Program-made: the position numbers and the translations under genes | Shown: positions 454 through 18,719 of the stretch, one piece after another | How the letters are laid out: the number at the start of each line of letters is the position of its first letter | Numbering within the stretch: position 1 is the stretch's first letter | Source of the DNA: Actinomycetes bacterium | GTDB lineage: Bacteria > Actinomycetota > CALGFH01 | Reading direction: 5' to 3' | Assembly (NCBI GenBank): GCA_030152105.1 | Contig: JASLIH010000468.1 | Span: 1 to 26,895, forward strand | DNA: 26,895 nt | Notes under the pieces: model-generated | What the model was told of the DNA's origin: nothing | The model's input: the letters and a program-made list of their open reading frames with translations, nothing else | Databases searched by the model: none

Positions 454-1621
454 TCAGGCCGGCGGATGGTGGACGTAGTTCGGGCGCAGGTCGGCGGTCT
501 GGTAGTAGCGGTGGAACACCGCGGTGGCGGCGCCCGAGATCGGCGGGACGATCCATGACCAGTCGGCCGGGGTGATCCGGCCGGCGCGCTGCTCCCTGGC
601 CAGGTGGGTCAGGAAGCGGTGGGACTCGGTGTCGTGGTCGGCGATGGTGACCCCGGCGCTGTCGAAGGAGTGCAGGACGGCCAGGTTGAGCTCGACCAGG
701 ACCCGGTCGCGCCAGAGCGACCGCTCCTTGGTGGTGTCGAGCCCCATGTGGTCGGCGACGGCGGGGAGCAGGTCGTAGCGGTCGACGTCGGCCAGGCTGC
801 GGGCGCCGATCTCGGTGCCCATGTACCAGCCGTTGAAGGACGCCGCCGGGTAGCAGATGCCGCCGATCTCCAGGCACATGTTGGAGATGGCGGGGACGGC
901 GTGCCAGCGCAGCCCGAGGCCGGCGAACCATCGGTAGCGGGGTGGCCGAGCGGCACCTCGAGGACCGCGTCGCTGGGAAGGTCGAACAGCCGGGGGCCCT
1001 CCCCGGGGGCCTGCACGACCAGCGGCAGCACGTCGAACAGGGTGCCCGGCCCGGCCGGGCCAGCCGAGGTCGCGCACGGCCTCGGTGAAGTCGGCGTAGC
1101 GCGGGTCGCCGACGATCGTCCCGTCCGCCGTCGGTAGCCGGCGTAGCGGATCAGCTGCTCGTTCCAGATGCGGGGGCCGGGCCGCCCGGGCATGGCCGGG
1201 GCGAACACGGTGAGGGTCGGCCGCACCCGCCCCCGTTGGTGGCCTCGCGCAGGTGCGCGACCGCCTCGGTGGCCAGCTGCCCGGCGCCGGTGACGTGGCG
1301 CCGGTCGCGCACCCGCAGGCTGCGCCAGGAGAGCCGGCCGATGCAGCGGCTGCTGTTGCGCCAGGCGGCCTGGGCCCCGAAGGTCAGCTCGGCGGCGGTG
1401 TGGGCGTAGGTCCCGTACCGCTCGATCTGGGCGCGGACCTCCTCGACCCGCGCCCGGATCGACCCCACGCGCGGGTTCTCGGCCTGGTAGAGGGCCAGGA
1501 ACTCCTCGGCCGCGGCCGGGTCCACCCGCCTCCCCGGGGCCAGCTCGCCCAGGGGCGCCGGCCGTCCGGCCGGGACCGCCACGTCGTGCCTGGGCTCCCC
1601 GCGAACAGCATGACTGCTCAT
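454..1621 (-). pseudogene. nos: bacterial nitric oxide synthase oxygenase, four apparent frameshifts
   Basis: The conceptual protein matches the NOS oxygenase family, which makes NO from L-arginine with heme and a tetrahydropterin. Landmarks in order are AWRNSSRCIGRLSW with the proximal heme Cys, a RPTLTVFAP strand, [36 protein letters not shown], and [13 protein letters not shown] with the Glu that binds arginine in the family. No reductase domain follows, as usual in bacteria. The frame changes four times reading leftward, near 1230, 1135, 1058 and 944. Three changes fit loss of one base next to G or C runs; the third fits two lost bases or one gained base. Residues between breaks stay well conserved and the stop is in the normal place, so sequencing or assembly errors are as likely as recent gene death. 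ATG 1621 or GTG 1630 could be the start. Neighbouring genes are intact. Confidence 0.85.
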
Positions 1622-1653
1622 GATGCCCACCCCCGCCGAAGGAGACGTTATCC

Positions 1654-1913: not shown

Positions 1914-3437
1914 TCAGCCCTCGAACACCGGCTTGAGGGCGGCGTAGAGGTCGCGGTAACGGCGGTAGGCGTCGGCGTAGCGCTGGTGGGTCTCGAGGTC
2001 GGGGACGTGCTCGTCGGGCTGGTAGGCGACGAAGGCGGACACGGCGTCGGCGACGCTGCTGTGCACCCCGGAGCCGACCGCGGCCAGGATGGCGGCGCCG
2101 GTGGCGGTGGTCTCGACGCTGGTCGGGACCCGGACCGGGAGGCCGGTGACGTCGGCCTTGATCTGGCGCCACAGGGGCCCCTTGGCCCCGCCGCCGACGA
2201 TCGTGAGGCGGCGGACGTCCAGGCCGGCGGCGCCCATCCCCTCGAGGATGTCGCGGAGGGCGTACGCGCTGCCCTCCAGCAGGGCCCGGGTCATGTGGGC
2301 CCTGGTGTGGGCGAGGGTGAGGCCGTAGAAGACCCCCCGGGCGGCCCCGTTCCACTCCGGGGCCATCGCGCCCTGCATGCAGGGCAGGAAGACCAGCCCC
2401 TCGGCCCCTGGGGGGATCTTGGCCGCCGGGCCGGTCAGCAGGTCGTAGGCGTCGCCCTGCCCGCTGGCCTCCGCCGCCCGCTCCAGGGGCGCGAACTGGT
2501 CCCGCCACCAGCGCAGGTTGCCGCCGGAGACGAACCCGGGGTTCTCCAGCAGCCAGACGTCGGGGTCGGCGTGGGGGTGGCACTCGACCAGCATGGCCGG
2601 GTCCTCGCCCGGCTCCGCCGACGCGGCGCAGACCGGCTCGGCGGTGCCGACGACGTCGCACACCTCGCCGGGGGCGAACACCCCGGCGCCGAGGGTGGCC
2701 GCCATCTCGTCCCCGCAGCCGACCACCACCACCGTGCCCGGCGACAGGCCGGTGCGCTCGGCGAAGGCCCTCGTGACCGGCCCGACGGCCTGGGTCCCGG
2801 CGGCCAGCTCGGGGAGCATCGCCTCCTCGACCCCGACGGCGTCCAGGACCGGCGCCGACCAGTCCCGGGTCCTCGGGTCGAGCAGGGCCAGCGAGGAGGC
2901 GTTGGACCAGTCGGCGGCCAGCACCCCGGCGGCCTCGCGCAGCACATAGGACCCCGGCGGCATGAGGTGGGCGGCCTCGGCGAAGACCTCGGGCTCCTCG
3001 TCGCGGACCCACAGGGCCTTGAACACCGCGTGCGAGGAGTCCAGGTTGGCCCCGGTGTGGTGGTAGAAGTCGGCCGGCGACAGCTTGTCGGCGACCGCCG
3101 CCGCCTGCGGCTCGGCCCGCCGGTCCATCCAGATCATCGCCGGGCGCAGCGGCTCGCCCTCGGCGTCGCACACCACCATCCCGTCCAGCTGCGACCCGAA
3201 CGACAGCGCCGTCACCGCCGCCGGGCCCTCCGGCGCCTCGGCCAGCACCCGGGCGATGCTGGCGTGCAGGGCCGCGGTCCACAGCCTCGGGTCCTGCTCG
3301 GCCCAGCCGGGATGGGGGAAGTCGACGTCGTAGGCCTCGTAGGCCGAGGCCACCAGGCGCCCGTCGGCGGCGTACAGGGCGGCGTTGGTGCCCTGGCTGC
3401 CGACGTCGCAGCCGATCACGTACGGCGCGGCGGTCAC
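1914..3437 (-). CDS. FGGY-family carbohydrate kinase (xylulokinase-like)
   Basis: This 507-residue protein has the two-lobed FGGY kinase fold. It begins with the phosphate-1 loop in YVIGCDVGSQGTNAAL, has GWAEQDPRLW and WMDRRAEPQ substrate-side motifs, and ends with the ATP-binding IVGGGAKGPLWRQIKADV region and ETTATGAAILAA. The length is typical. Such enzymes phosphorylate a sugar, ketose or polyol with ATP in the cytoplasm; family members include XylB, GlpK, AraB and LsrK, and the substrate cannot be fixed by eye. GTG 3437 is chosen because it overlaps the dehydrogenase stop in GTGA, which suggests coupled translation. It is the last gene of the GntR-aldolase-dehydrogenase cassette, so it probably activates the product of, or the substrate for, the other two enzymes. 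Confidence 0.9.
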   Translation of the reverse strand: MTAAPYVIGCDVGSQGTNAALYAADGRLVASAYEAYDVDFPHPGWAEQDPRLWTAALHASIARVLAEAPEGPAAVTALSFGSQLDGMVVCDAEGEPLRPAMIWMDRRAEPQAAAVADKLSPADFYHHTGANLDSSHAVFKALWVRDEEPEVFAEAAHLMPPGSYVLREAAGVLAADWSNASSLALLDPRTRDWSAPVLDAVGVEEAMLPELAAGTQAVGPVTRAFAERTGLSPGTVVVVGCGDEMAATLGAGVFAPGEVCDVVGTAEPVCAASAEPGEDPAMLVECHPHADPDVWLLENPGFVSGGNLRWWRDQFAPLERAAEASGQGDAYDLLTGPAAKIPPGAEGLVFLPCMQGAMAPEWNGAARGVFYGLTLAHTRAHMTRALLEGSAYALRDILEGMGAAGLDVRRLTIVGGGAKGPLWRQIKADVTGLPVRVPTSVETTATGAAILAAVGSGVHSSVADAVSAFVAYQPDEHVPDLETHQRYADAYRRYRDLYAALKPVFEG

Positions 3438-4486
3438 GGCACCACCACCATCTTCAGGCCGGCCCCGGAGCGGATGGTCTCGAACGCCTCGCCGATCTTG
3501 TCCAGGGGGAACTGGTGGGTGACGACCGGGGCCAGCTCGGTCCGGCGCCGGTTGAGGTAGTCCATGGTGAGCCGGTACTGGCGGTGGGTGGCCCCGTACG
3601 CGCCGAGGATGGCCAGCTCCTTGTAGTGGAGCTGGTTCATGTCGAGCGGGCTCACCGGGTCGTGCTTGGGCAGGCCGGCGAAGTAGACCACCCGGGCCCG
3701 CTTGGCGGCCATCTCCAGGGCCGCCTGCTGGGCCTGCTTGGAGGGCGCGGCCACGCTGATCCGCTCGGCTCCCCCACCGCCGGTCCGCTCCAGCAGGCCG
3801 GCCAGGCCGTTGTCCTCGCCGGCCTCCCAGGCGTCGTCCACGAACCCGCCCACCGCCTCGAGGGCCAGGTCGAGGCGCTGGCGGTTCACGTCGCACAGGA
3901 ACACCCTGCCGGCCCCGCGGTCGCGGGCCATGACCGCCTGCCAGCAGCCGATCGGGCCGGAGCCGAGGATCAGCACGGTGTCGCCCAGGCCGACCTCGAG
4001 GACCTCGATGCCGTTGAGGGCGCAGGCGAACGGGTCCACCACCGTGGCCAGCTCCGACGGCAGATCGGGCGGGAGGGGGATGAGGTTCTTGACGGCGATC
4101 GGGGGCACGGCGGCGAGCTCGGCGTAGGCCCCGGGGAAGGGGTCGAAGCCGTACAGCAGGTGGTGCTCGCAGAGGTTCTGGCGGCCGTCGAGGCACTGGC
4201 GGCACTGGCCGCAGGTGAGGATCGAGCCGAGGAACACCCGGCCCCCGGCCTCCACCCCCTGGGGCAGCGTGGCGTCCGGCCCGACCCGCTCCAGGACCCC
4301 GACCGGCTCGTGGCCCAGGACCCAGGGGGCCGGCGCCCGCGGGTCGCCGTTGAAGAAGGTCCGTGCGTCGGTCCCGCAGATCCCGCAGGCCTGCACGCGC
4401 AGGATGGCCCCGCGCGGGTCGAGGGTCGGCTCGTCGACCTCACGGACCGCCACCGCGTTGCGGTCGGTCATGAACGCCGCCCTCAC
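3434..4486 (-). CDS. zinc-dependent medium-chain alcohol/polyol dehydrogenase
   Basis: This 350-residue protein belongs to the medium-chain dehydrogenase family, like sorbitol and threonine dehydrogenases. Catalytic zinc ligands are visible as Cys37 in CGICGTD and His59-Glu60 in GHEPVG. Where many relatives have Glu in EPLA, this one has Asp151 in DPFA. The structural zinc site is complete, with Cys92, Cys95, Cys98 and Cys106. A GSGPIG nucleotide-binding loop lies at 175-180. GTG 4486 is preferred over ATG 4471 because the resulting MRAAF start fits the family and because it overlaps the aldolase stop as GTGA. The likely reaction is NAD(P)-linked oxidation of a secondary alcohol on a polyol or sugar. 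Specificity is unknown; the neighbouring kinase and aldolase point to a catabolic chain. Confidence 0.88.
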   Translation of the reverse strand: MRAAFMTDRNAVAVREVDEPTLDPRGAILRVQACGICGTDARTFFNGDPRAPAPWVLGHEPVGVLERVGPDATLPQGVEAGGRVFLGSILTCGQCRQCLDGRQNLCEHHLLYGFDPFPGAYAELAAVPPIAVKNLIPLPPDLPSELATVVDPFACALNGIEVLEVGLGDTVLILGSGPIGCWQAVMARDRGAGRVFLCDVNRQRLDLALEAVGGFVDDAWEAGEDNGLAGLLERTGGGGAERISVAAPSKQAQQAALEMAAKRARVVYFAGLPKHDPVSPLDMNQLHYKELAILGAYGATHRQYRLTMDYLNRRRTELAPVVTHQFPLDKIGEAFETIRSGAGLKMVVVP

Positions 4487-5337
4487 GACCGTGCCTCGGG
4501 CGCCGTCTCCTGGAGCTCGTCGAAGGCCTTGTCGGCGCTCCAGCGTTCCCGGATCACCCTGGACAGGGCCCGGGTGATCGCCTCGGGGGAACGGTGCATG
4601 AAGATGTTCCGGCCCACCGAGCAGCCGATGCCGCCGGCCGCGGTGGCCGCCTCCATCCGCGCCAGCAGCTCCCGGTCGCCGAGGCGGGAGCCGCCGGCCA
4701 GCACCAGCGGGATCCCGGCGGCCGCCTCCACCAGGCGGGCGAACAAGTCCCCGTCGCCCGGCCAGTTCGTCTTGACGATGTCGGCCCCGAGCTCGGCGCA
4801 GAGCCGCACGTTGCGCCGCAGATACTCGAAGCCGTACTGCTCCTTGAGCTGCTCGACGGCGGCGTAGGTGGTCGGGAACTCGGCCTCGGCGATCAGCGGC
4901 ATCCCCATGGCGGCGCACTCGCGGCCCACGCCGGCCAGGGTGCGGATCATCCCCGCCTCGGTGTCGCCGCCCAGCGCCGTGAACAGCACCACGGCGTCGG
5001 CCCCGAGGCGGACGGCCTCCTCCACCTGGGCGATCTGGATCACCTCGGGCTGGGGGTCGGCCGGGTTGGCCGAGGCCGACAGCAGCAGGGCCAGCGAGGT
5101 CGTTGGCGAGAACGCCGGCTCGGCCAGCCGGATCATGCCCTTGGACATCATGATGACGTTGGCCCCGCCGGCCACCACCTCGGCGGTGCGGGCGCCGATG
5201 GCGGCCAGCGGCTCCAGGAACGTCGGCGAGGTCATGCCGTGGTCGAGAGCGCAGATGATCGAGACCCCGGCCGGGTCGATCACCCGCTTGAGGCGCATCG
5301 CCGTGCCCACCTGGGTGGTCGCGGCCTGTGTCGTCAT
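4483..5337 (-). CDS. DhnA/LsrF-family class I aldolase
   Basis: This 284-residue enzyme has the (beta/alpha)8 fold of the DeoC/LacD/DhnA group. It shows CALDHGM (29-35), GANVIMMSKG, a probable Schiff-base Lys189 in ADIVKTNWPGD, the phosphate-binding VLAGGSR, and GGIGCSVGRNIF near the end. The same family holds archaeal-type fructose-bisphosphate aldolase, the aminoshikimate-route enzyme and LsrF, the AI-2 pathway thiolase. The C-terminal ADKAFDELQE resembles the LsrF tail region, but eye alignment cannot separate these activities. Its ATG overlaps the GntR stop by ATGA and its own stop overlaps the next start by GTGA. It probably cleaves a phosphorylated keto compound made by the neighbouring kinase and dehydrogenase. 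Confidence 0.85.
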   Translation of the reverse strand: MTTQAATTQVGTAMRLKRVIDPAGVSIICALDHGMTSPTFLEPLAAIGARTAEVVAGGANVIMMSKGMIRLAEPAFSPTTSLALLLSASANPADPQPEVIQIAQVEEAVRLGADAVVLFTALGGDTEAGMIRTLAGVGRECAAMGMPLIAEAEFPTTYAAVEQLKEQYGFEYLRRNVRLCAELGADIVKTNWPGDGDLFARLVEAAAGIPLVLAGGSRLGDRELLARMEAATAAGGIGCSVGRNIFMHRSPEAITRALSRVIRERWSADKAFDELQETAPEARS

Positions 5338-6101
5338 GTGAGCCTCCTTCCGGGGCCCCGCCGGACCACCGTGAAATCGAACGCGTCGGCAAGGTGGAAC
5401 TCATGCGATGAGATGACCGGGGTGCCGTCCTGGGCGTAGTCGACCTGCCAGAGGTAGAGCAGCAGCTCGCCCCGGGGCACCCCGAGGCGGCCGGCGACGG
5501 CGTGGTCGGCCCGCACCGGCCGGAACCGGGCCACGCCGTGGTGGATGACGATGCCGAGGTCACGCTCGAGCACGTCGTAGATGGATCGTTCAAGCATCTC
5601 CTGGACGACCTGGTCGCGGCCCTTGACCAGCCGGCTGGGGAACAGGTCGCGCGACAGCACCACCGGCTTGCCCTCGGCCGTCCGCACCCGCTCGATCACC
5701 AGGACGTCCTGGCCCGGCTCCAGCTCCAGCAGGGCCGCCTCACCGGCCGCGGCCGGCTCGACCCAGGTGCGCCCGTCGGCGATCCCGGCGGTCATGCCGG
5801 CGGCCCGGATGGCATCGGTGACGCCGAAGTTCACGTCGAGGCTGTTGGCCATGCGGGGGTGGTCGGCGACGAAGGTGCCGGAGCCCTGGCGGCGCCTGAG
5901 GAGCCCCTCCAGCTCCATGGCCCGCAGGGCCTCGCGCAGGGTCGCCCGCGACACCTGGAGCTCGGCGGCCAGCTCTGGCTCGGAGGGCAGCTGGGTCCCG
6001 GCGGGGAGCTCTCCCCGGTCGATCCGCTGCTTGAGCTCGTCCTGGACCGAGACCGAGCGTAGCCGTGGTCGCGCCCCGGTTGCCCGCTGTGGCCTCTGCA
6101 T
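5334..6101 (-). CDS. GntR/HutC-family transcriptional regulator with UTRA domain
   Basis: This 255-residue protein has an N-terminal winged helix (about 15-80) with the family signature LPSEPELAAELQVSRATLREAL and a wing ending RRRQGSGTFV. A UTRA ligand-binding domain follows (about 95-245), including VLSRDLFPSR and a terminal HEFHLADAFDFTV. Regulators of this kind usually repress nearby catabolic genes until a metabolite binds. It is the first gene of the four-gene cassette and stands divergent from the APC permease, with two matching palindromic sites between them, so autorepression plus permease control is likely. ATG 6101 has no Shine-Dalgarno sequence, and a TATACT -10 box ends 10 bases upstream, so the mRNA may be leaderless or nearly so. 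Confidence 0.9.
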   Translation of the reverse strand: MQRPQRATGARPRLRSVSVQDELKQRIDRGELPAGTQLPSEPELAAELQVSRATLREALRAMELEGLLRRRQGSGTFVADHPRMANSLDVNFGVTDAIRAAGMTAGIADGRTWVEPAAAGEAALLELEPGQDVLVIERVRTAEGKPVVLSRDLFPSRLVKGRDQVVQEMLERSIYDVLERDLGIVIHHGVARFRPVRADHAVAGRLGVPRGELLLYLWQVDYAQDGTPVISSHEFHLADAFDFTVVRRGPGRRLT

Positions 6102-6111
6102 TCTGGCGAGG

Positions 6112-6142
6112 AGTATACGTCAGACAACTCAGCCAGGGTCAA
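6112..6142 (-). promoter_or_regulatory. leftward promoter of the GntR cassette
   Basis: Read on the minus strand there is TTGACC (6142-6137), a 19-base spacer and TATACT (6117-6112). The spacer is longer than ideal, but the -10 match is strong. Transcription would begin about 6102-6106, right at the GntR ATG at 6101. One copy of the operator lies inside the spacer. Confidence 0.5.
6118..6129. promoter_or_regulatory. operator copy 1 for the GntR regulator
   Basis: The sequence CGTCAGACAACT holds the GTC-A-GAC palindrome typical of GntR-type sites (GTC-N-GAC). The 11 bases GTCAGACAACT (6119-6129) recur exactly at 6196-6206. This copy lies between the -35 and -10 of the leftward promoter, where a bound repressor would block polymerase. 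Confidence 0.6.
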
Positions 6143-6147
6143 GGAGC

Positions 6148-6176
6148 TTGACTCGGTCTTACCACGCCCTTACCAT
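6148..6176 (+). promoter_or_regulatory. rightward promoter of the APC permease
   Basis: TTGACT (6148-6153), a 17-base spacer and TACCAT (6171-6176) make a good housekeeping-type promoter. The start would be near 6183, giving a leader of about 70 bases before GTG 6254. Operator copy 2 lies just after the start point. Confidence 0.5.
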
Positions 6177-6194
6177 CCGGCCATCGTCCAGTAA

Positions 6195-6206
6195 TGTCAG
6201 ACAACT
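6195..6206. promoter_or_regulatory. operator copy 2 for the GntR regulator
   Basis: TGTCAGACAACT contains the perfect 9-base palindrome TGTC-A-GACA (6195-6203) and shares 11 bases with copy 1. It lies just downstream of the predicted permease transcription start. It also covers the in-frame ATG at 6194, which argues against that codon being the real start. Confidence 0.6.
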
Positions 6207-6253
6207 TCCCGGACGCGGCCCTGCCGCGCGACGACGAGCAAGGGGGTTGCGAC

Positions 6254-7837
6254 GTGGCCCAGGAGCGACGCCGAGTCGGATCGGTGAGCTACGAGGAGGC
6301 CGGCGAGGACTACTTCGGCAAGCGCAGGCTGCGCCGGCACGCGGCCTTCTGGTCGCTGTGGTCGCTGGGGGTGGCGGCCGTCATCTCCGGCGACTTCTAC
6401 GGCTGGAACCTGGGCCTGGACGCCGGCGGGTTCGGCGGGCTGCTGATCGCGACGGCCGTCATCACGATCATGTACTTCGGGCTGTGCTTCAGCATCGCCG
6501 AGATGTCACCGGCCCTCCCCCACACCGGCGGGGCCTACTCCTTCGCCCGCTCGGCCATGGGGCCCTGGGGCGGGTTCATCACCGGGCTGGCCGAGAACAT
6601 GGAGTACGTGATCACCCCGGCCGTGGTCGTGGGGGCGATGGGCTTCCTGATGCACGACATCGTCACCGGCCTGTTCGACATCGTCGGCTCGCCCTGGTGG
6701 AACAGCCCGGTGACCTGGTGGGCCGTCTTCTACGTGGTCTTCGTGTGGATCAACATCCTCGGCATCGAGGCCACGATGCGGTTCACCGTGGTGATCAACA
6801 TCCTCGCCCTCGGGATCCTGGCCTTCTTCTTCATCTCGGTGCTGGCCTCGGGCAAGCTCGACACCAGCCTGTGGACCAACATCCCGCCCGAGGCGGGCGG
6901 CTCCAGCTTCCTGCCCAAGGGGATCGCCGGCATCTTCCCGGCGATCCCGTTCGCCATCTGGTTCTACCTGGCCATCGAGGAGCTGCCGCTGGCCGCCGAG
7001 GAATCCCACGACCCGGCCCGCGACGTCCCCCGGGCCACCATCTGGGGCCTGGTCACCCTGGTCATCACCGGCCTTGGCATTCTGTTCCTCAACACCGGGA
7101 TCGACGGGGGCGCGGCCGACATCGGCGTCTCGGCCACCCCGCTGTTCGACGGGTTCAAGGCCGTGTTCGGCGAGGGCACTGGGGCCGAGGTGCTGGCCCT
7201 GATCGGGCTGACCGGCCTGATCGCCAGCTTCTTCACCATCATCTACGCCTACGGCCGCAACACCTACTCGCTGTCGCGGGCCGGCTACTTCCCGAAGTGG
7301 CTGTCGGTCACCCACGGCACCCGCAACACCCCCCACCGGGCCCTGATCGCCGGCGCCGTCGTCGGCTACGCCCTGGCCGTGCTGATCTACGAGCTGGGCC
7401 AGAGCGAGGGCGCCCTGGCCGGGAAGATCGTCGGGGCGCTGCTCTACATGGCCGTGTTCGGCGCCGTCATCTCCTACTTCATGCAGTGCCTGTCGTTCAT
7501 CCTGCTGCGCCGCAAGTACCCCAACATCCAGCGGCCCTACCGCAGCCCGGTCGGCGAGTGGGGCGCGGGCATCGCCGGGGCGATCGCCCTGGTCTCGCTG
7601 ATCTCGCTGTACTCCAACGCCGACTACCGCCCGGGTGTGTACGGGACCCTCATCTACTTCGTGATCGGGATCGCCTACTTCGCCTTCTCGGGCCGCAACC
7701 GCCTGGTGCTCTCCCCCGAGGAGGAGTTCGCCATGACCCACGGCGAGCACGGCCGCCCCCAGAGCGAGGGCTACGGCTCCACCCACGTCAGCGACCTCGA
7801 CGCCGAGACGACCGTCAAGGAGACTCCCACGCCGTAA
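6254..7837 (+). CDS. APC-superfamily permease, ethanolamine-permease-like
   Basis: This is a 527-residue inner-membrane transporter with about twelve hydrophobic segments. The first part, VISGDFYGWNLGLDAGGFGG, then LPHTGGAYSFARSAMGPWGG and GLAENMEYVITPAV, closely resembles ethanolamine permeases of the APC superfamily, which usually run as proton or sodium symporters or as exchangers. GTG 6254 is chosen because AGGGGG (6241-6246) precedes it at 7 bases; the longer frame from ATG 6194 would begin inside operator copy 2. No ethanolamine lyase or shell genes are nearby. Divergence from the GntR cassette and the shared operator suggest it imports the compound, or an amino-bearing relative, that the aldolase, dehydrogenase and kinase break down. 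The substrate is not known. Confidence 0.88.
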   Translation: MAQERRRVGSVSYEEAGEDYFGKRRLRRHAAFWSLWSLGVAAVISGDFYGWNLGLDAGGFGGLLIATAVITIMYFGLCFSIAEMSPALPHTGGAYSFARSAMGPWGGFITGLAENMEYVITPAVVVGAMGFLMHDIVTGLFDIVGSPWWNSPVTWWAVFYVVFVWINILGIEATMRFTVVINILALGILAFFFISVLASGKLDTSLWTNIPPEAGGSSFLPKGIAGIFPAIPFAIWFYLAIEELPLAAEESHDPARDVPRATIWGLVTLVITGLGILFLNTGIDGGAADIGVSATPLFDGFKAVFGEGTGAEVLALIGLTGLIASFFTIIYAYGRNTYSLSRAGYFPKWLSVTHGTRNTPHRALIAGAVVGYALAVLIYELGQSEGALAGKIVGALLYMAVFGAVISYFMQCLSFILLRRKYPNIQRPYRSPVGEWGAGIAGAIALVSLISLYSNADYRPGVYGTLIYFVIGIAYFAFSGRNRLVLSPEEEFAMTHGEHGRPQSEGYGSTHVSDLDAETTVKETPTP

Positions 7838-7840
7838 GGG

Positions 7841-9418
7841 TCAGGGGCTGTCGAGCACGGCCAGGTCGGCAAGGGCCGACCTGGCCTCCTCGAGCAGGAT
7901 CCGCTCGGCCCGGCGGTAGGTGGCGTCAGCCTGGGCCGGGGTGTCGCCGACGGCGGTCAGGCCGACCCGCCCGTGCTCGCTCAGGCAGCTGATCATGTGG
8001 AACACGACGCCGGCCTGGCGGGCCTGGTCGAAGTGGAGACCGTGGCGGGCGACGATGTCGAACAGGTCGTCGTGGCGCAGGCCGCGCAGCAGCGGGTCCT
8101 CGAGATGGTCGGTGGCGACCAGGTGCTTCTCGCGGCCGTCGGGGGTGACGAACAGGGCGGTCGCCGCGTCGTAGCGGCCGTCGGTGAGGAACTGCAGGGT
8201 CAGGAACGGGTGGGTGGTGCCGCCCTTGCGGAGGTTGAGCTCGATGGCGTACTGGGCCCAGGCGCCTTCGCGGTCGCGGACGACCACGAAGTCGATGGCG
8301 AAGCGGCCGAGCACGCCCTCGCGGGCCAGGCGGCGGCCGATGATGGCGGCGTCGGCGCTGATCGCCCTGGCGTAGGCGAAGTCGGCCGGGAACCGGCAGC
8401 CGAGATAGCTCTGGCCGCTGGGGCCGCCGAGGAGCTGGTCGTGGGTCGAGAGCAGCTCGACGTCGCCGAGGGGCGTGACCCGCAGCTGGACGCTGGGGCT
8501 ACGGAGCTCGACCCCGGAGATCAGCTCCTCGACGATGCCGCCGCGCTCGGCCAGCTTGGCCACGTACCCGTCGAACGGCATGTCGGGGAGCTCGAAGCGC
8601 ATGGCCCTGGCCCGCTCGCCCAGCTCGGCCGGCTCCCCGGCCGAGCCCGGCGGGGGCAGCCCGCCCAGGTCGACCAGGGCGTTGCCGCCGCCGGAGACGC
8701 CCTCGTTGAGCTTGACCAGGGCCTGGCCGGCCCCGGGGCTGGCCGCGCGTAGCCGGGCCAGGGCGCCGACGACCTCCTCCAGGCTGTGCAGATCCTCGAA
8801 GCCGGCCGGGTGGCGCACCCCCTCCTCGGCGAAGAGCCGGCGGCAGCCGCTCTTGGTCCCCAGGTGGAACAGCCGCGGGTCGGCGCCGTACATGGGGATC
8901 CCGAGGGCCAGGGCCAGGTCCCGCTCCAGCGGGGTGGTGTTGTAGGGCACCAGGTGGGAGCGGCGCCGGTCGGGGACGAGCGAGCGGATCTGGGAGACCA
9001 CCCGGGGCCGCTCCAGGAGCTTCTCGGTGAGCGGCCGCGGCGAGCCGTCCTGGACCGCCACCAGCGACAGCCGAGCCCGGGCGTGGCTGGGGATGATGCC
9101 GGGCAGCAGGGCCAGGTAGTACTCGACGATCTGGGGGGCGATCGGCATCGAGGTCACGTACACCATCCGCAGCCGCGGCTGGCGAAGTAGGAGCAGCAGG
9201 AACAGGAACCGCTCCTCGTAGGCCTGGGTGAGCGACCCGCTGTTCTGGTTGACCCGGTCGACCGTCACCGACGGCACCACCACGACCGACTCGCCCTCCT
9301 GGTTGAGGCGCATGGCCCGCCACACCTCGGGCATCTGGGTCTGGAGCCTGGCGAAGCGCCGGTCGCGCTCGCCCGGGTCCAGCTCGGCCAGGGTCGGCGG
9401 CCGGGTGGTGCTGGTCAC
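7841..9418 (-). CDS. ATP-grasp ligase, PGM1 (peptide ligase)-like
   Basis: This protein of about 525 residues resembles PGM1-related ATP-grasp enzymes, which join a carboxylate to an amine through an acyl-phosphate; PGM1 itself acts in pheganomycin synthesis. Visible parts are PRLRMVYVTSMPIAPQIVEY (81-100), the nucleotide-binding VKLNEGVSGGGNALVDL (235-251), GGIVEELISGVELRSPSVQL and the metal-binding FAIDFVV and AIELNLRKGGTTHP near the C-terminal third. GTG 9418 is chosen because it overlaps the cyclase stop in GTGA; longer in-frame extension looks like out-of-frame translation of the cyclase gene. It is the last gene of a four-gene signalling operon, an unusual setting. It ends three bases from the convergent permease gene. 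No precursor peptide gene was found beside it. Confidence 0.75.
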   Translation of the reverse strand: MTSTTRPPTLAELDPGERDRRFARLQTQMPEVWRAMRLNQEGESVVVVPSVTVDRVNQNSGSLTQAYEERFLFLLLLLRQPRLRMVYVTSMPIAPQIVEYYLALLPGIIPSHARARLSLVAVQDGSPRPLTEKLLERPRVVSQIRSLVPDRRRSHLVPYNTTPLERDLALALGIPMYGADPRLFHLGTKSGCRRLFAEEGVRHPAGFEDLHSLEEVVGALARLRAASPGAGQALVKLNEGVSGGGNALVDLGGLPPPGSAGEPAELGERARAMRFELPDMPFDGYVAKLAERGGIVEELISGVELRSPSVQLRVTPLGDVELLSTHDQLLGGPSGQSYLGCRFPADFAYARAISADAAIIGRRLAREGVLGRFAIDFVVVRDREGAWAQYAIELNLRKGGTTHPFLTLQFLTDGRYDAATALFVTPDGREKHLVATDHLEDPLLRGLRHDDLFDIVARHGLHFDQARQAGVVFHMISCLSEHGRVGLTAVGDTPAQADATYRRAERILLEEARSALADLAVLDSP

Positions 9419-10542
9419 GAGCTGATCCGGGCCGCGTCCAGCCCGACCACGTTGAAGGTGGCCACCGGGCGGGAGAAGCCGCGCAGGGTCAGCTCCCCCA
9501 CCGGCTCGCTGGTCACGAACTCCTCCACCGCGGCGTGGACCCGCGGGCTGAGCAGGATCTGCCACGGCCGGGCCTCAGCGCACAGCCGGGCGGCCAGGTT
9601 GGTGCAGTTGCCGATGGCCGTGTAGTCCGACCGGCCCTCGAACCCGACCCGGCCGAGGGTGGCGTAGCCCTGGGCCACGCCGACGCCCAGGGCCAGGTCG
9701 TAGCCGTGCCGCGTCCAGTCCTTGGCCAGGCCCTCGACCCGGTTGCGCATGGCCACCGCCATCCGGACCGCCCGCAGGGGCGCGTCCTCACAGGGCAGCG
9801 GGTCGTTGAAGAACACCATCAGCCCGTCGCCGGTGAACCGCTCGAGGGTGCCCTCGAACCGGGTGACCAGGTCGCCGAGGGCCTGGTAGTAGTCGTCCAG
9901 CACCCCCATCACCTCCTCCGGCTCGGCGGTCTCGGCGAAGGCGGTGAAGGCGCGCAGGTCGCAGAAGACCACGGTGATGTCGCGCCGGTGGCTGTCCAGG
10001 AACGACTCGTCGCCGGAGGACACGACCAGGTCGGCCAGCTGGGGCGAGAGGAACCGGCGCAGCCGGCCCATGCGCTCGAGCTGGCCGACCTGGTCGCTGA
10101 CCCGCTGCTCGAGGGTGCGGTTCCACTCGGCCAGCTCGGCCGCCTGGCCCTCGATGGTGTCGTGGTAGCGCTTGATGCGCAGTAGCGACCGCACCCTGGC
10201 CAGCAGCTCGGCCTGGTCGAAGGGCTTGGCCACGAAATCGTCGGCACCGGCCTCGATGGCCAGGAGCCGCTCCTGGTCGCCGCTGGCGGTGATCATGACC
10301 ACGGGCAGGAAGGCGGTGGCCGGGTCCTGGCGCAGGCGGCGGCAGACCTCGTAGCCGTCCATCTCTGGCATCACGATGTCGAGCAGGACCAGGTCGGGGC
10401 GGTGCTCGACGACCAGGGCCAGGGCCTCGGGGCCGGACCCGGCGCCGAGCACCCGGTAGCCGCGAGGGCTGAGCACGGCGTCGAGCAGGCGGACGTTGGC
10501 CGGCAGGTCGTCGACGGCCAGGACAAGGGGCTCATCGGTCAT
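9415..10542 (-). CDS. response regulator with class III adenylate/guanylate cyclase output
   Basis: This 375-residue protein joins a receiver domain to a nucleotide cyclase. The receiver (about 1-120) has Asp11-Asp12, phospho-acceptor Asp55 in LVLLDIVMP and Lys106 in AKPF. A coiled-coil-like linker (about 130-165) leads to RRFLSPQLADLV, common before such cyclase domains. The class III catalytic domain has metal-binding Asp195 in VVFCDLRAFT and Asp239 in FTGDGLMVFF, plus the transition-state Asn and Arg in TNLAARL. cAMP is the likeliest product, but ATP versus GTP choice cannot be fixed. It overlaps the receiver gene upstream by 11 bases and the ATP-grasp gene by four. Phosphotransfer from the operon kinase probably controls it. 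Confidence 0.92.
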   Translation of the reverse strand: MTDEPLVLAVDDLPANVRLLDAVLSPRGYRVLGAGSGPEALALVVEHRPDLVLLDIVMPEMDGYEVCRRLRQDPATAFLPVVMITASGDQERLLAIEAGADDFVAKPFDQAELLARVRSLLRIKRYHDTIEGQAAELAEWNRTLEQRVSDQVGQLERMGRLRRFLSPQLADLVVSSGDESFLDSHRRDITVVFCDLRAFTAFAETAEPEEVMGVLDDYYQALGDLVTRFEGTLERFTGDGLMVFFNDPLPCEDAPLRAVRMAVAMRNRVEGLAKDWTRHGYDLALGVGVAQGYATLGRVGFEGRSDYTAIGNCTNLAARLCAEARPWQILLSPRVHAAVEEFVTSEPVGELTLRGFSRPVATFNVVGLDAARISS

Positions 10543-10924
10543 CGGGCAGCTCCGCGGCGGTGAGGAACGCGCGCACCTGGCCGGGCAGCTCGCGCACGCT
10601 GATGGGCTTCTCCAGGTAGCCGTCGAACCCGGCCCGCAGGACCCGCTCGCGGTCCTCCTTCATGGCCAGGGCCGTGACGGCGACGACGGGGACACCGGCG
10701 GTGGGCGGGCTCCCCCGCAGCTGCCGGAACGCCTCCATGCCGTCGATGCCGGGCAGCTGCAGGTCGAGCAGGACCAGGTCCGGCGGGCGGACGCTGGCCA
10801 GGGCCAGGCCGTCCTCGGCGGTGCGGGCCTCGGCGGTCCGGAACCCGCTGAACTGGAGCACGTCCCGGACCAGCTTCAGGTTCCGCTCGTTGTCCTCGAT
10901 GATGAGGATCAGCTGGTCGGCCAT
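10532..10924 (-). CDS. stand-alone response regulator receiver (DivK-like)
   Basis: This 130-residue protein is only a receiver domain, with no DNA-binding output. It has Glu10-Asp11, phospho-acceptor Asp54 in VLLDLQLPG, Thr84 in AVTALAM and Lys106 in EKPI. The DNERNLKLVRDVL helix is like those of DivK/CpdR-type single-domain regulators that work in phosphorelays. Its start lies inside the end of the kinase gene (16-base overlap) and its end lies inside the start of the cyclase gene (11 bases), so its synthesis is tied to both. It may shuttle phosphate between the kinase and the cyclase, or act as a sink. Confidence 0.92.
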   Translation of the reverse strand: MADQLILIIEDNERNLKLVRDVLQFSGFRTAEARTAEDGLALASVRPPDLVLLDLQLPGIDGMEAFRQLRGSPPTAGVPVVAVTALAMKEDRERVLRAGFDGYLEKPISVRELPGQVRAFLTAAELPDDR

Positions 10925-12627
10925 GTCGCCTCCGGTCCGCAGCGGGCGAGCGCGTCGAGGACACCCTCGCGTGACACCGGCTTGACCAGGTAGTCGGCCG
11001 CGCCGAGGGCGAGCCCGCGACCGCGCTCGTCGAGGATCGACACCACCACCACCGGGATGGCGGCCGTTGCCGGGTCGGCCTTGAGCGACTCCAGGACCTG
11101 CCAGCCGTCCAGCCCGGGGAGCAGGATGTCCAGCACGACGATGGCCGGCTGGAGGGCCTTGACGAGCTCGACCCCGCGCCGGCCGTCGTGGGCGCTGACC
11201 ACCCGCAGCCCGGCCGCCTCGGCATACACGGTGAGCAGGTCGATGGAGCGGCGGTCGTCGTCGATCACGACCACCGTGCGCTCCCCGTCGGCCCGGCCCG
11301 GGTCGTCGCCGGTGGCGGCGGCCGTGGCCGGGGCGCCGGCCGGGATGGCGAACCCGAAGGTGCTGCCCACCCCCAACTGGCTGTCGACCCAGATCCGGCC
11401 GCCGTGCAACTCAACGATCCGCTTGGACAGGGTCAGCCCGAGCCCGGTGCCCTCGGTGGTCGAGGCCCGGCGGCCGCCCTGCTGGAAGGACTCGAAGATC
11501 CGTTCACGGTCCTCGGCCGCCACCCCGGTCCCGGTGTCGGCCACGGTCACCAGGACCTCGGTCCCCTCGGTGCGGGCCCGGACCTCGACCCGCCCACCGT
11601 CGGGGGTGAACTTCACCGCGTTGGACAGCAGGTTGACGATCACCTGCTTGATCCGCAGCTCGTCGGCGCGCACCGGCCTCACGTCGGCGGCCACCTCGAG
11701 GCCGAGCCAGATGCCGTGCCGGGCGGCCCGCTCGCGCACCAGGGCGAGGCCGTGGCCAAGGGCCTCCTGGAGGGAGAACTCGGTCGGGTCCAGCGTCATC
11801 TGGCCGGCCTCGACCTTGGAGAGGTCGAGGATCTCGTTCAGCAGCTCCAGCAGGTGCTTGCCGGAGCTCCAGATGTCGCGCAGGTAGTCCTCCTGACGGT
11901 CGTTGAGGTCCCCGAACATCCGCTCCAGCAGCACCTCGGAGAACCCGATGACCGCGTTCAGCGGGGTCCGGAGCTCGTGCGACATGCTGGCCAGGAACTC
12001 CGACTTGTGCCGGCTCGCCACCTCCACCTCGGCCGACCGGGCCTGCAGCGCGTGGACCAGGTCGACGTTGCGGATGGCGATCGCCGCCTGGGTGGCGAAG
12101 GTGGTCAGGAGCTCGGTGGCCCGCTCGCTGAACGGGTCGACCTCGGTCCGCCAGACGACCAGGACGCCGACCACCTCGCCGTCGAGCAGCATGGGGACGC
12201 CCATGGTGGTCCGGAAGCCGCCGTGGCGCTGGATGTCGAGCCGCCCGTACTCGGGGTCGGCAAGGACGTCGGCGATCTGCTGGGGCCGGCGCTCCAGCCC
12301 GACCCGGCCGGTCAGGGTGCCCCGGTCCTGGGCCAGGGGATGCTGGGCGAGGTAGGCGCGGTCCTCCTCGGTGAGAGGGCCCGACGCGATGGCCAGCCGG
12401 TAGGTGTCCGCCTCGAGCAGGAAGATCAGGGCGATGTCGGCCCGGCAGAGGTGGCGGGCGCTGTCGACCACGGTCTCCAGCACGGCGTCGAGGTCCGAGG
12501 TGGCACGACCGAGGACGGCCAGGACCCCGCTCGTCGCCGCCTGCTGCTCCCGGGCCTCGGCGAGGTCGCGCCGGAGGCGCTCGACCTCCTCGCGCAGCCC
12601 CCCCACGGCCTCGACGCCCTCGACCAC
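10909..12627 (-). CDS. hybrid sensor histidine kinase: GAF-HisKA-HATPase-REC
   Basis: This soluble hybrid kinase has about 572 residues. A short N-terminal coiled coil (about 10-35) is followed by a GAF sensor domain (about 40-190), a HisKA dimer domain with phospho-acceptor His217 in SMSHELRTPLN, a HATPase domain with NLLSNAVKF (N box), DTGTGV and GTGLGL (G boxes), and a C-terminal receiver holding VVVIDDD and an Asp in VVLDILLPG. No membrane segment is seen, so it should sense a cytoplasmic signal through GAF. GTG 12627 is chosen for a GGAGG box 4 bases upstream; an in-frame ATG at 12714 adds a stretch without domain features. It heads the operon with the single receiver, the cyclase and the ATP-grasp enzyme. 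Confidence 0.92.
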   Translation of the reverse strand: MVEGVEAVGGLREEVERLRRDLAEAREQQAATSGVLAVLGRATSDLDAVLETVVDSARHLCRADIALIFLLEADTYRLAIASGPLTEEDRAYLAQHPLAQDRGTLTGRVGLERRPQQIADVLADPEYGRLDIQRHGGFRTTMGVPMLLDGEVVGVLVVWRTEVDPFSERATELLTTFATQAAIAIRNVDLVHALQARSAEVEVASRHKSEFLASMSHELRTPLNAVIGFSEVLLERMFGDLNDRQEDYLRDIWSSGKHLLELLNEILDLSKVEAGQMTLDPTEFSLQEALGHGLALVRERAARHGIWLGLEVAADVRPVRADELRIKQVIVNLLSNAVKFTPDGGRVEVRARTEGTEVLVTVADTGTGVAAEDRERIFESFQQGGRRASTTEGTGLGLTLSKRIVELHGGRIWVDSQLGVGSTFGFAIPAGAPATAAATGDDPGRADGERTVVVIDDDRRSIDLLTVYAEAAGLRVVSAHDGRRGVELVKALQPAIVVLDILLPGLDGWQVLESLKADPATAAIPVVVVSILDERGRGLALGAADYLVKPVSREGVLDALARCGPEATWPTS

Positions 12628-12797
12628 CTCGCCTCCTCGAGGACAACCCCACCAGCCAGGACCAATCCGCCAGAGACGTCCAAGTAGTGTCCTCCCGCCG
12701 AACTCCGAACACAACGGGTGGAGCCGGGAGCGGTTGACGGGCCTGGGAGAGACCTGCGAGCGTCCCGGATCCCGAACCCACCTGCGAGGGCTGACCG

Positions 12798-15867: not shown

Positions 15868-16728
15868 TCATGGCCGGCCGGCCCAGCGGCGGGCGCCGTC
15901 GACCCGGGTCACCGTGCCGAAGGGCTCCGGGAAGTGGGCCGGGGCCAGCCACATGCCCTCGGACTCGAGCTGGTCCAGGAGCCGGCGCCTGGTCCCTCTG
16001 GCCACCTCGGGCTGGACGTCGCTGCCAGGGCCCCAGTCGGGCTCGCCGACCTGGGCCGGGTGGTTGGCGACGTCGCCCCAGAGCAGGGCCGCCTCCTCCG
16101 CCGAGCGGACCAGCAGGCTCTGGGAGCCGGGGGTGTGCCCGGGGGTGTGGAGCAGGCTGAGCTCGGCGTCCAGGGTGCGGTCGCCCTCCAGCAGCTCGGC
16201 CACCCCGAGGGCCTGGAGCGGGGCCACGCACCGGACGAAGGCCTCGCGGTCGTCCTCGTCGCCGTAGGTCGCGAACAGCTCCCAGTCGGCCCGCTGGACG
16301 AGGTAGCGGGCCCGCGGGAACAGCGGCCGGGCCCGGTCGCCGTCCCAGGCAAGGTTCCAGCCGATGTGGTCCAGGTGCAGGTGGGTGAGGACGACCAGGT
16401 CGATCTCGTCCGGCTCGACCCCGGCCGCGGCCAGCTCCTGGGGCAGCCGCCCCGGGACCCCGATCCAGGTGGCGCCGGGCGCCCCGGGCCCGCCGACCCC
16501 GGTGTCGACCAGCACGACCCGGTCGCGGCCCCGGACCACGAAGCACCAGTCGCGCAGCCGCCAGCGGCCGGGCCCGCCGAACGCCTTCGGGTGGCGCTCC
16601 CGCCACGGCGCCCAGGCGGCCGCCTCCACCCGGGGAAAGGCCCGCTCCAGCGGGGCCGGGAAGTCGCCCGTGACGTCGCACACGGCGGTGATCTGGACGG
16701 TGCCGACGGTCAGCGACCGGCTGGTCAT
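15868..16728 (-). CDS. metallo-beta-lactamase-fold hydrolase
   Basis: This 286-residue cytoplasmic protein has the binuclear metal site THLHLDHIGW (His116, His118, Asp120, His121), a later His in LLHTPGHTPGS, an Asp in LLWGDVANH and a last His in LAPAHFPEPFG. The form resembles lactonase and YtnP-like members, which open lactones including acyl-homoserine lactones, but glyoxalase-like or arylsulfatase-like activity cannot be ruled out. Its ATG overlaps the stop of the molybdoenzyme gene by four bases, so it is made in the same operon. Its own stop lies 19 bases from the convergent patatin gene, with no room for a long terminator. Confidence 0.88.
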   Translation of the reverse strand: MTSRSLTVGTVQITAVCDVTGDFPAPLERAFPRVEAAAWAPWRERHPKAFGGPGRWRLRDWCFVVRGRDRVVLVDTGVGGPGAPGATWIGVPGRLPQELAAAGVEPDEIDLVVLTHLHLDHIGWNLAWDGDRARPLFPRARYLVQRADWELFATYGDEDDREAFVRCVAPLQALGVAELLEGDRTLDAELSLLHTPGHTPGSQSLLVRSAEEAALLWGDVANHPAQVGEPDWGPGSDVQPEVARGTRRRLLDQLESEGMWLAPAHFPEPFGTVTRVDGARRWAGRP

Positions 16729-17816
16729 CGTGGCACCTCGCGGACCGTGACCCGGACCCGGTGGAGGGCGTTGTTGGCGTAGCCGCCGGTGTTCCAGGGG
16801 ACCTGGGCGGGCTGGGTGTTGCCGGCCGCGTCGGTGGCCCGCGAGCACAGCTCGTAGCTGCCGGGGGCGGCGTCCCATTCGTAGGTCCAGCCGGCCCAGG
16901 CCCAGGCGGAGGGCTGGGGTGCCAGCCGGGCCGGGGCCCAGCTGCCGCCGCCGTCGAGGCTGACCTCGACCCCGGCCACCGGGGCCAGGCCGGACCAGGC
17001 CCGGCCGGACAGCCGGTGGCGGCCCGGGGGCAGGAACCGCTGGCGGGACTCGAACTCGGGAACCCCGGGCGGCAGCAGGAGCGAGCGCGGCTGGATGCGG
17101 GTGACGGGCGTCCCCGGGTCGTCCTCGGAGGTGTGGATCAGGTAGGTGCCGGTCTGCTGGTAGCCGTCGAACGGCTCGGTGAGCAGGGTGATCCGGCGCA
17201 GCCATTTGACCGAGGTCATGCCGTACCAGCCGGGCACGACCAGCCGCAGCGGGTAGCCGTGCTGGGGCGGGAGGGGCTGGCCGTTGACCCCCCAGGCGAG
17301 CAGGACCTCCTCGCGCATCGCCTCGGCCAGGGGCAGGCTGCGCTCGTAGTCGTGCTCCAGGCCGCCCTGGACGCCCCGGTCGGCCCCGGCGAACAGGACC
17401 TCGACGGACCCGGGGCCTGCCCCGGCCTCCTCGAGCAGGGGGGCCAGCGGCGTACCCGTCCACTCGGCCGTGCCCACCGCCTCCTCCAGCCAGGGCTGGC
17501 TGACCGGCCGCGGGTCGAGCCGGGCCCGGCCGTTGCCGGCGCACTCCAGCGTCACCGGCGCGGTCACCACCGGCCGCCGCCGCAGCTCCTCCATGGTCAG
17601 CGACAGCGGCCGTTCCACCCGCCCGCCGACCTCCAGCCGCCAGGTCGTCTCGTCGGCGGCCGGGATGTCGAAGTGGATCAGCAGGTAGTGGAGGCCGACC
17701 GGGGTGACGTCGTAGCGGAGGGCCTCCAGCGGCATCCCGTGGTTGCGGGCCGCCAGGGCCAGCTCCTCCATGGTGATGCCGGTCGCGCGGCCCTCGGTGG
17801 CCGCCGGGTCGGTCAT
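16725..17816 (-). CDS. sulfite-oxidase-family molybdopterin oxidoreductase (cytoplasmic)
   Basis: This 363-residue protein has the sulfite oxidase fold. HYLLIHFDIP lies near 43-52, the molybdenum-ligating Cys92 sits in TLECAGNGR, and HGYPLRLVVPGWYGMTSVKWL forms the later part of the cofactor pocket. A dimerisation domain follows (about 245-363) with VSLDGGGSWAPA and WTYEWDAAPGSYEL. There is no heme-binding cytochrome b5 domain and no Tat signal, unlike exported YedY/MsrP or SorA types, so it should act in the cytoplasm, or its partner is elsewhere. ATG 17816 has GAGAGGA upstream. It sits 14 bases after the epimerase and overlaps the hydrolase gene. The substrate (sulfite or another oxo-acceptor) is not clear. 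Confidence 0.9.
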   Translation of the reverse strand: MTDPAATEGRATGITMEELALAARNHGMPLEALRYDVTPVGLHYLLIHFDIPAADETTWRLEVGGRVERPLSLTMEELRRRPVVTAPVTLECAGNGRARLDPRPVSQPWLEEAVGTAEWTGTPLAPLLEEAGAGPGSVEVLFAGADRGVQGGLEHDYERSLPLAEAMREEVLLAWGVNGQPLPPQHGYPLRLVVPGWYGMTSVKWLRRITLLTEPFDGYQQTGTYLIHTSEDDPGTPVTRIQPRSLLLPPGVPEFESRQRFLPPGRHRLSGRAWSGLAPVAGVEVSLDGGGSWAPARLAPQPSAWAWAGWTYEWDAAPGSYELCSRATDAAGNTQPAQVPWNTGGYANNALHRVRVTVREVPR

Positions 17817-17830
17817 GGCGATCCTCTCGT

Positions 17831-18694
17831 CTAGAACAGCGATCTCCAGGTGAACTCGGGATCGTAGCCGAGCAGGCGGCGGGCCTTGTCGATCCCCAGC
17901 AGGGTGCCGTGCTCGGCCAGGTCGCCCTTGACCGGGACGCCGGGGAATACCTCGGCCAGTAGTTCGCGGCTGGGGCGGCGCATGACAGTGTCGCCGGCGG
18001 CGATGATGAACGCCTCGGCCCCGGCGACGTCGGCCTCGAGGGCCCGCCGCACCGCCTGGGCGACGTGCGACTCGTCGACGTAGCCCCACAGGTTCCATCT
18101 GCGCAGCTGCGGGTCGTCCCAGAAGGACGGGAACCGCTGGTAGTCGGCCCGCTCCATGATGTTGGAGAAGCGCAGGCCCAGGAACGGGATGCCGGTCCAG
18201 CGGGCGAACTGGCGGGCCATCTCCTCGCCGAGGACCTTGGAGAGGGCGTAGGAGGTCTCGGGCCGCAGCTCGGCCTGCTCGTCCACCGGCGCGTAGTCGG
18301 GCGGGCGGTCGAAGGGCAGGCCGAGGGTCGTCTCGCTGGACGCCCAGACGACCCGCTCGAGGCCGAGGCGGGCCGCGGCCGCGAACACCGTGTGGGTGCT
18401 GGTGAGGTTGGTGCGGAACACGATGTCGGGGGTGGCGTGGACCGGCGAGGGGATGGCGGCCAGATGGACGACGGCCTGGATGCCCCCGAGGACCTCGGCC
18501 CCGCTGAGGGCCTCCAGGGTCTGGCCGAAGTCGGTCAGGTCGGCGGGCAGGAACGGCGCCGGCGAGTCGGCCGTGCTCGACTCGGCCGACGGCACCCGGT
18601 CGACGTTCAGCACCTGGTGCCCGTGCTCGAGCAGGTCGCGGACCACGGCCCGTCCCGCCTTGCCGCTCCCCCCGGTGACGACAATCCTCGTCAT
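17831..18694 (-). CDS. NAD-dependent epimerase/dehydrogenase (extended SDR)
   Basis: This 287-residue Rossmann protein starts with IVVTGGSGKAGRAV (NAD loop at 8-14), has VVHLAAIPSP, a Ser-rich VVWASSETTLG, and the catalytic Tyr-Lys pair in SYALSK. The ETTLG and LGLRFSN motifs recall uronate dehydrogenase and UDP-sugar epimerase relatives; the length is near that of uronate dehydrogenase. The reaction is not certain. It is the first gene of a leftward operon with the molybdoenzyme and the hydrolase. A strong GAGAGGAGC sequence lies 8-16 bases before ATG 18694. No obvious sugar pathway gene follows it. Confidence 0.85.
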   Translation of the reverse strand: MTRIVVTGGSGKAGRAVVRDLLEHGHQVLNVDRVPSAESSTADSPAPFLPADLTDFGQTLEALSGAEVLGGIQAVVHLAAIPSPVHATPDIVFRTNLTSTHTVFAAAARLGLERVVWASSETTLGLPFDRPPDYAPVDEQAELRPETSYALSKVLGEEMARQFARWTGIPFLGLRFSNIMERADYQRFPSFWDDPQLRRWNLWGYVDESHVAQAVRRALEADVAGAEAFIIAAGDTVMRRPSRELLAEVFPGVPVKGDLAEHGTLLGIDKARRLLGYDPEFTWRSLF

Positions 18695-18719
18695 GGCCGC
18701 TCGCTCCTCTCAGTACGGC

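Follow-up and report, generated by a model that had tools for sequence, protein, structure and literature searches.

Gene content and control regions of the divergon

The stretch of DNA analysed here, referred to as the window, comprises the 26,895 nucleotides of contig JASLIH010000468.1 from an Actinomycetes bacterium (assembly GCA_030152105.1; Actinomycetota, CALGFH01), and carries between positions 1914 and 7837 a divergon of five genes that joins a permease to a repressor and three catabolic enzymes. The minus strand is transcribed in the order regulator, aldolase, zinc dehydrogenase and kinase, with the permease gene divergent on the plus strand. The first gene of the operon encodes a GntR/UTRA regulator of 255 amino acids (5334..6101; Pfam GntR and UTRA), and is followed by genes for a DeoC/LacD-family (DhnA-like) aldolase of 284 amino acids (4483..5337; Pfam DeoC), a zinc-dependent dehydrogenase of 345 amino acids (3434..4471; Pfam ADH_N and ADH_zinc_N) and an FGGY carbohydrate kinase of 507 amino acids with a GTG start (1914..3437; Pfam FGGY_N and FGGY_C). 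The aldolase start overlaps the regulator stop, as does the kinase start the dehydrogenase stop. The fifth gene (6194..7837, plus strand; Pfam AA_permease) encodes an APC-superfamily permease resembling ethanolamine permeases; its true start is probably GTG 6254, with AGGGGG at 6241-6246, rather than ATG 6194, which is the less likely of the two because it overlaps the second operator. None of the five proteins reaches the cut-off of an NCBIfam model. The enzyme families themselves are known, and what is new is their combination and its regulation; among the titles and abstract openings listed for the literature searched (subscription journals mostly outside it), no work joining this gene set was found.

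Each of the two divergent promoter regions contains one operator, in agreement with the suggestion of a reading made from the sequence alone (the sequence-only reading) that the permease gene shares the operators of the operon. Operator 1, TTGTCTGAC (6119..6127, minus strand), lies within the -35/-10 spacer of the likely promoter of the GntR-aldolase-dehydrogenase-kinase operon (6112..6142, minus strand), which was recognized by eye as TTGACC (6142-6137) and TATACT (6117-6112) with a spacer of 19, and hence falls outside the listing of a promoter scan that permits spacers of 16-18 only. Operator 2, TGTCAGACAA (6195..6204, plus strand), lies downstream of a promoter-like site for the permease gene (6148..6176, plus strand; TTGACT-17-TACCAT) that was returned by the scan. 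The sequence TCAGACAACT matches the window at two places only, 6120 and 6197, even when one mismatch is allowed; at least two matches were also obtained in 7 of 100 shuffles, so that the count from the window alone is modest evidence.

Conservation of the divergon and its operator

A genome scan with an alignment of the aldolase returned 36 loci, and the core of the divergon is present in 27 of these, with aldolase identities of about 72% or more. Together with four further loci (L069, L070, L072 and L073) and the window, they make up the 32 core loci considered below, which lie mostly in uncultured Actinomycetota and Chloroflexota. Carriers of the aldolase account for 21 of 396 sampled genomes of one phylum (19 at identities of at least 62%) and 7 of 301 of another. 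Of the 32 core loci, 24 have the APC and GntR genes side by side in divergent orientation. The remaining eight include three records that start inside the core (L003, L012, L023), and two loci with gamma-glutamyl-hydrolase-like genes in the place of the APC gene, behind the same operator (L005, L019). A binding-protein ATP-binding cassette (ABC) transporter (SBP_bac_6) occupies that place, again behind the operator, in L010; a GATase gene stands there in L006, which has no GntR match, and L021 retains the APC gene, likewise with no GntR match. Two core records, L018 and L020, end before the kinase.

The operator is conserved in these relatives, either in the form TTGTCTGAC or as the palindrome TTTGTCNGACAAA. 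With the middle base left free (TTGTCNGAC, both strands), it is found upstream of the GntR gene in all 27 core loci that can be examined, the window included. Elsewhere, the examined core loci (370,841 bases) contain only two sites (L008, L035), and control stretches of a single genome (336,020 bases) also contain two. Among 22 control loci (348,954 bases), TTGTCTGAC was matched exactly a single time with both orientations allowed. The exact 10-mer TTGTCTGACA is present once in each of the whole genomes G007, G037, G001 and G103, twice in G051 and not at all in G058; every copy in these five genomes sits at the divergon, and the reversed pattern was absent from all six. The G058 locus (L072) carries the variant TTGTCGGAC (TTGTCGGACAA) in place of the exact 10-mer. 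Four core loci (L003, L006, L021, L023) showed neither a GntR match nor an operator site, and L012 is truncated upstream; in the more distant loci L025, L030 and L033, a GntR match is present, and no operator was found before it.

The confinement of the operator to the divergon indicates that the permease and the enzyme triad constitute a small dedicated regulon, and we regard it as near certain that they are placed together under one such regulon. The distinct catabolic regulon with its own permease that had been proposed from the sequence is thus borne out by the gene set, by the shared and conserved operators and by the recurrent divergent arrangement, and the loss of permease linkage among relatives that would have spoken against the proposal did not occur.

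Beyond the core, a divergent instance in Thermoleophilia (L026) retains the aldolase at 60%, the kinase at 49% and the dehydrogenase at 41% identity, with APC-family, glutamine synthetase (GS)-like, short-chain dehydrogenase/reductase (SDR) and aldehyde dehydrogenase (ALDH) genes nearby; its triad is adjoined by a DUF6885 gene and a phosphoribosyl pyrophosphate synthetase-like gene (L026, 4761-6674). Relatives of the aldolase, dehydrogenase and kinase on plasmid records are all below 60% identity. The Palleronia and Shinella plasmid aldolases have PfkB kinases and sugar-type ABC genes as neighbours, and a Rhizobium gallicum record is unannotated. A plasmid of Rhizobium sp. X9 (L091, 863-9128) combines a tripartite ATP-independent periplasmic (TRAP) transporter, a hydroxyacid dehydrogenase, the aldolase, a zinc dehydrogenase, an FGGY kinase and an FCD regulator in what is a second type of triad locus, and a Rubrobacter plasmid bears a distant triad of the same three enzyme types with glycerol enzymes. 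Judging by the distant triads with TRAP transport or glycerol enzymes, the triad seems to be a device of general use, with the permease and hydrolases supplying the amine side. Distant aldolases of the same clade (L027, L029, L030) adjoin glycerol-1-phosphate-dehydrogenase-like genes, the L030 gene having been scored and those of L027 and L029 assigned by clustering with it.

Family placement of the enzymes and the permease

The kinase and aldolase had been assigned from sequence to the families of LsrK and LsrF, and this stands at the level of their FGGY and DeoC/LacD domains but not at that of the named enzymes, whose cut-offs are not reached. The best NCBIfam model for the kinase is XylB (TIGR01312; 349.6 bits of 380.25), while LsrK scores 231.4 of 528; against solved structures, LsrK (5ya0; 204.1 bits) narrowly surpasses XylB (199.7 bits). 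In place of the GQMHG of E. coli XylB, the kinase carries the motif SQLDG, present in all 25 core rows, and so shows neither the score nor the motif of a XylB. In a tree with LsrK, XylB, LyxK, FucK, AraB, RhaB and GlpK of E. coli, the kinases of the divergon form their own clade, although the deep branches are long and unsure.

The aldolase is a class I enzyme of the DeoC/LacD family (PF01791; 106.6 bits over 23.8) with the Schiff-base lysine, Lys189 in the window by alignment, invariant in a 35-row alignment that leaves out L010 and L034. An EAE motif (residues 151-153 in the window) is likewise present in 35 of 35 rows. The residue that follows, at what we take to be the site of the usual catalytic Tyr, is Phe154 in the window and Phe in the core (Val in L018), Tyr in L027, L028, L030, L033 and L036, and Trp in L026. 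Of the NCBIfam models, 2-amino-3,7-dideoxyheptulosonate synthase (PRK07226) scores 213.3 bits of 241 and LsrF 108.5 of 297, and the nearest solved structure is MJ0400, a synthase of this type (134.7 bits, vs 81.9 for LsrF); the window aldolase remains under both curated cut-offs. The role of MJ0400-type synthases is biosynthetic. A tree with LsrF, FbaB and YihT of E. coli again sets the aldolases of the divergon in a clade of their own, with long and unsure deep branches, and a structure prediction from a 12-row alignment (A1) was poor (mean predicted local distance difference test score 59.1). Neither kinase nor aldolase thus groups with the E. coli reference enzymes in these trees, and the firm placement inside a known pathway that would have undermined the original proposal did not come about.

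Processing of autoinducer-2 (AI-2) or an AI-2-like compound by analogues of LsrK and LsrF is very unlikely. LsrK is narrowly the best solved structure for the kinase and the aldolase counts LsrF among its solved relatives, yet both proteins fall far from equivalog membership, their clades are apart from E. coli LsrK and LsrF, and the annotated lsr genes of E. coli include no zinc dehydrogenase. As the sequence-only reading had it, no Lsr importer (LsrACDB) or LsrR, nor LsrG, was recognized in Pfam scans of 23 open reading frames (ORFs) of the window, with small ORFs left out and a record that ends 1.9 kb past the kinase. Its suggestion of an AI-2-like substrate is disfavoured by the nearer resemblance of the aldolase to MJ0400 and by the want of a recognized importer, regulator or isomerase.

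That the aldolase is a housekeeping fructose-bisphosphate aldolase, or part of a glycerol or dihydroxyacetone route, located here by chance is barely credible. Archaeal fructose-bisphosphate aldolases do belong to its family, but a dedicated repressor and operator would be out of place in such a setting, and separate glycolytic aldolases are present in 8 of 10 related genomes, all eight with PF00274 (two with one in-frame stop, one split), four genomes with PF01116 and none with PF01950; none of the three was found in G058 or G002. The AI-2, xylulose and housekeeping-aldolase readings were all rejected on the separate clades of the kinase and aldolase, the sub-cut-off scores and these separate glycolytic aldolases.

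For the dehydrogenase, the best named models are L-threonine 3-dehydrogenase and scyllo-inosose 3-dehydrogenase, all far under cut-off; G051, the source genome of L070, has other dehydrogenases at 30-37% identity elsewhere. The regulator scores best against PhnF (109.8 of 156.8). Permeases of the divergon straddle the cut-off of the ethanolamine permease model TIGR00908 (381.75), with the window (369.4) and L007 (375.8) below and L021 (400.2) above. This position, near but under the cut-off, suggests that the window permease may transport a related amine rather than ethanolamine itself.

The scores of the XylB model and of these two sub-threshold permeases, set against 500.5 for the permease of L075, a locus with a cluster of the GlnA4 type described from Streptomyces, would also suit an ordinary polyol or ketose pathway in which the APC subfamily has come to transport a neutral sugar alcohol instead and the association with gamma-glutamyl genes described below is hitch-hiking. 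This is improbable, in that the L021 permease does surpass the cut-off, the APC gene is replaced behind the operator by an SBP_bac_6 transporter or by amidohydrolase-like genes, and the gamma-glutamyl linkage occurs in both Actinomycetota and Chloroflexota records.

Linkage to gamma-glutamylation genes

The divergon of relatives is tied to genes of gamma-glutamylation, an addition to what the sequence-only reading had offered. The genes found around the triad encode GS-like ligases, ALDHs, SDRs, Peptidase_C26 or GATase hydrolases and class III aminotransferases, and these five classes, counted at identities of at least 40%, are referred to as amine-module genes. At least one is present in 24 of the 32 core loci, and at least two classes in 20; among core loci of at least 11 kb, the corresponding values are 18 and 17 of 22. 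By comparison, of 20 control stretches (16.8 kb each, all from the same genome), one had at least one such gene and none had two or more. At the level of whole genomes, a GlnA4-like ligase (E <= 1e-110) is encoded by 12 of the 19 genomes whose aldolase reaches at least 62% identity, vs 86 of the remaining 377 (Fisher p 3e-4, a value that ignores kinship), and a relaxed search, made in the aldolase-bearing genomes only, added fragments at 48-57% identity in four more. GS modules unlinked to the divergon also exist (L041 in G007, L138 in G037, L139 in G051, L042 in G004 and L043 in G001). Outside the core, the aldolase gene of two closely related NC10 loci (L028, L036) has genes for SDR, GS-like, nitrilase-family and ALDH proteins in its vicinity, with neither dehydrogenase nor kinase; these genes are absent from a third NC10 locus (L030), and the linkage in NC10 is therefore weak.

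The same genes may instead belong to two modules that share a promoter region, namely a permease-led module for an ethanolamine-like amine and an ordinary polyol module of dehydrogenase, kinase and aldolase, induced jointly because both compounds co-occur, as they might in lipid head groups or glycoconjugates. This is a possible arrangement, although doubtful on balance. Locus L078 presents the amine module alone (SDR, ALDH, C26 and GS) with a related permease (APC at 64%) and no triad, the triad is kept with no linked amine genes in the clade of the window and in L010 and L021, and the distant triads of the Rhizobium sp. X9 and Rubrobacter plasmids associate with TRAP transport or glycerol enzymes. 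Against separate modules stand the recurrence of the permease gene as divergent neighbour of the repressor-triad operon in three-quarters of the core loci (24/32) and the presence of the same operator before a hydrolase-like gene (L005, L019) or an ABC transporter (L010) in the place of the permease.

Comparison with known systems

The nearest parallel to the linked genes is the gamma-glutamylethanolamide (GlnA4) cluster of Streptomyces, SCO1610-1615, which comprises an SDR, an ALDH, a GS-like ligase and an amidotransferase, with an ethanolamine/amino acid permease in some species (PMC6529630); the same gene classes surround the triad in most of the long relatives. Clusters of this type in large genomes (L075-L077) keep SDR, ALDH, GS and C26 genes together, in L075 also with an APC gene, but matched no dehydrogenase-kinase-aldolase triad, unlike the divergon. 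They also differ in their regulators, an ORF of L076 being GntR-FCD and a regulator-like ORF of L075 matching no family, whereas that of the window is GntR-UTRA, and in the permease, that of L075 standing above the TIGR00908 cut-off and that of the window below. The linked GS-like ligase, ALDH, SDR and hydrolase of a GlnA4-type pathway were not found in the window.

The human sorbitol route, in which sorbitol is converted by way of fructose and fructose 1-phosphate to dihydroxyacetone phosphate (DHAP) and glyceraldehyde, presents a polyol dehydrogenase, ketose kinase and aldolase in the order proposed here for the divergon (PMC11519228). The divergon differs in its tie to an amine-type permease. 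The human kinase and aldolase are of other families than those of the divergon. The sulfoquinovose pathway of E. coli offers a further precedent, as an aldolase of this superfamily cleaves a 1-phosphoketose with an unusual tail to yield DHAP; it relies, however, on an isomerase and on a kinase of a different family (YihV), and YihT occupies a very long separate branch of the aldolase tree. The Lsr system of E. coli shares with the divergon an FGGY kinase and a DeoC/LacD aldolase, but the divergon has a dehydrogenase, its importer, regulator and isomerase counterparts were not recognized, and the sequence clades are apart.

Proposed pathway

The interpretation we tentatively prefer is that a single amine-bearing, polyol-like substrate is taken up, oxidized and phosphorylated, and then split into DHAP and a short aldehyde. 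The GntR/UTRA repressor would occupy the TTGTCTGAC site of each divergent promoter until its ligand arrives, and the permease would import the compound, as suggested by the permease family and by the replacement of the permease gene, in some relatives, by transporter or hydrolase genes. The likely order of reactions, judged from the enzyme families, is dehydrogenase, kinase and aldolase: the zinc dehydrogenase would turn a hydroxyl group into a ketone, the FGGY kinase would phosphorylate the resulting ketose at the end destined to be DHAP, and the Schiff-base aldolase would cleave the ketose phosphate into DHAP and a short aldehyde that probably bears an amino or gamma-glutamylamino group. Where the further genes are linked, the GS-like ligase may mask the amine, the short-chain and aldehyde dehydrogenases may oxidize the aldehyde, and gamma-glutamyl-hydrolase-like enzymes may release glutamate and a small amino acid. 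Among the substrates suggested earlier from sequence, an amino-polyol remains the best guess. A more detailed version, in which free or gamma-glutamyl-protected amino-polyols follow one linear, hitherto undescribed pathway of uptake by the permease, gamma-glutamylation, oxidation to an amino-ketose, phosphorylation by the kinase with its acidic SQLDG motif and retro-aldol cleavage by the variant Phe154/EAE aldolase to DHAP and a gamma-glutamylamino aldehyde, itself degraded to glutamate and a small amino acid, is unlikely to hold as a whole.

Several observations weigh against a single amine-bearing substrate. A linked gamma-glutamyl gene was not found in 8 of the 32 core loci (the window, L001, L069, L070, L010, L021 and the short L003 and L020), which leaves the window's own clade (window, L001, L069, L070) without this linkage; L070, from G051 and a close relative of the window, moreover has no dehydrogenase between aldolase and kinase. 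Both L006 and L021 want a GntR match and an operator. In 3 of the 19 aldolase-bearing genomes, no GlnA4-like ligase above 42% identity was found even by the relaxed search. No operator was found at the GS modules L041 (G007), L042 (G004) and L043 (G001), and the restriction of the exact 10-mer to the divergon in G007, G037, G051, G001 and G103 places the amine module outside the regulon there. Lastly, a distant aldolase-kinase pair in L033 stands beside apparent sugar ABC permeases (by eye), and another in L027 beside two kinases that are GlpK-like in the kinase tree, contexts in which the chemistry need not involve an amine.

The conservation of so tightly regulated a catabolic unit in Actinomycetota and Chloroflexota assembled from metagenomes suggests an amine-carbohydrate in the environment, and as the enzymes are individually expressible and assayable, its substrate is amenable to bench work.

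Other features of the window

Beside the kinase gene, a nitric oxide synthase oxygenase domain is spread over two frames (454-1630, minus strand; PF02898, 242 and 105 bits), explained either by disruption of the gene or by a slip in sequencing. An ATP-grasp-like protein with a PGM1_C domain is encoded at 7841-9565 (minus strand), convergently to the permease, followed by a GAF-histidine-kinase-receiver protein near a receiver-adenylate/guanylate-cyclase protein (9415-12714, minus strand). Further along, a gene for a metallo-beta-lactamase-fold protein adjoins that of a sulfite-oxidase-type molybdopterin oxidoreductase (15868-18932, minus strand).

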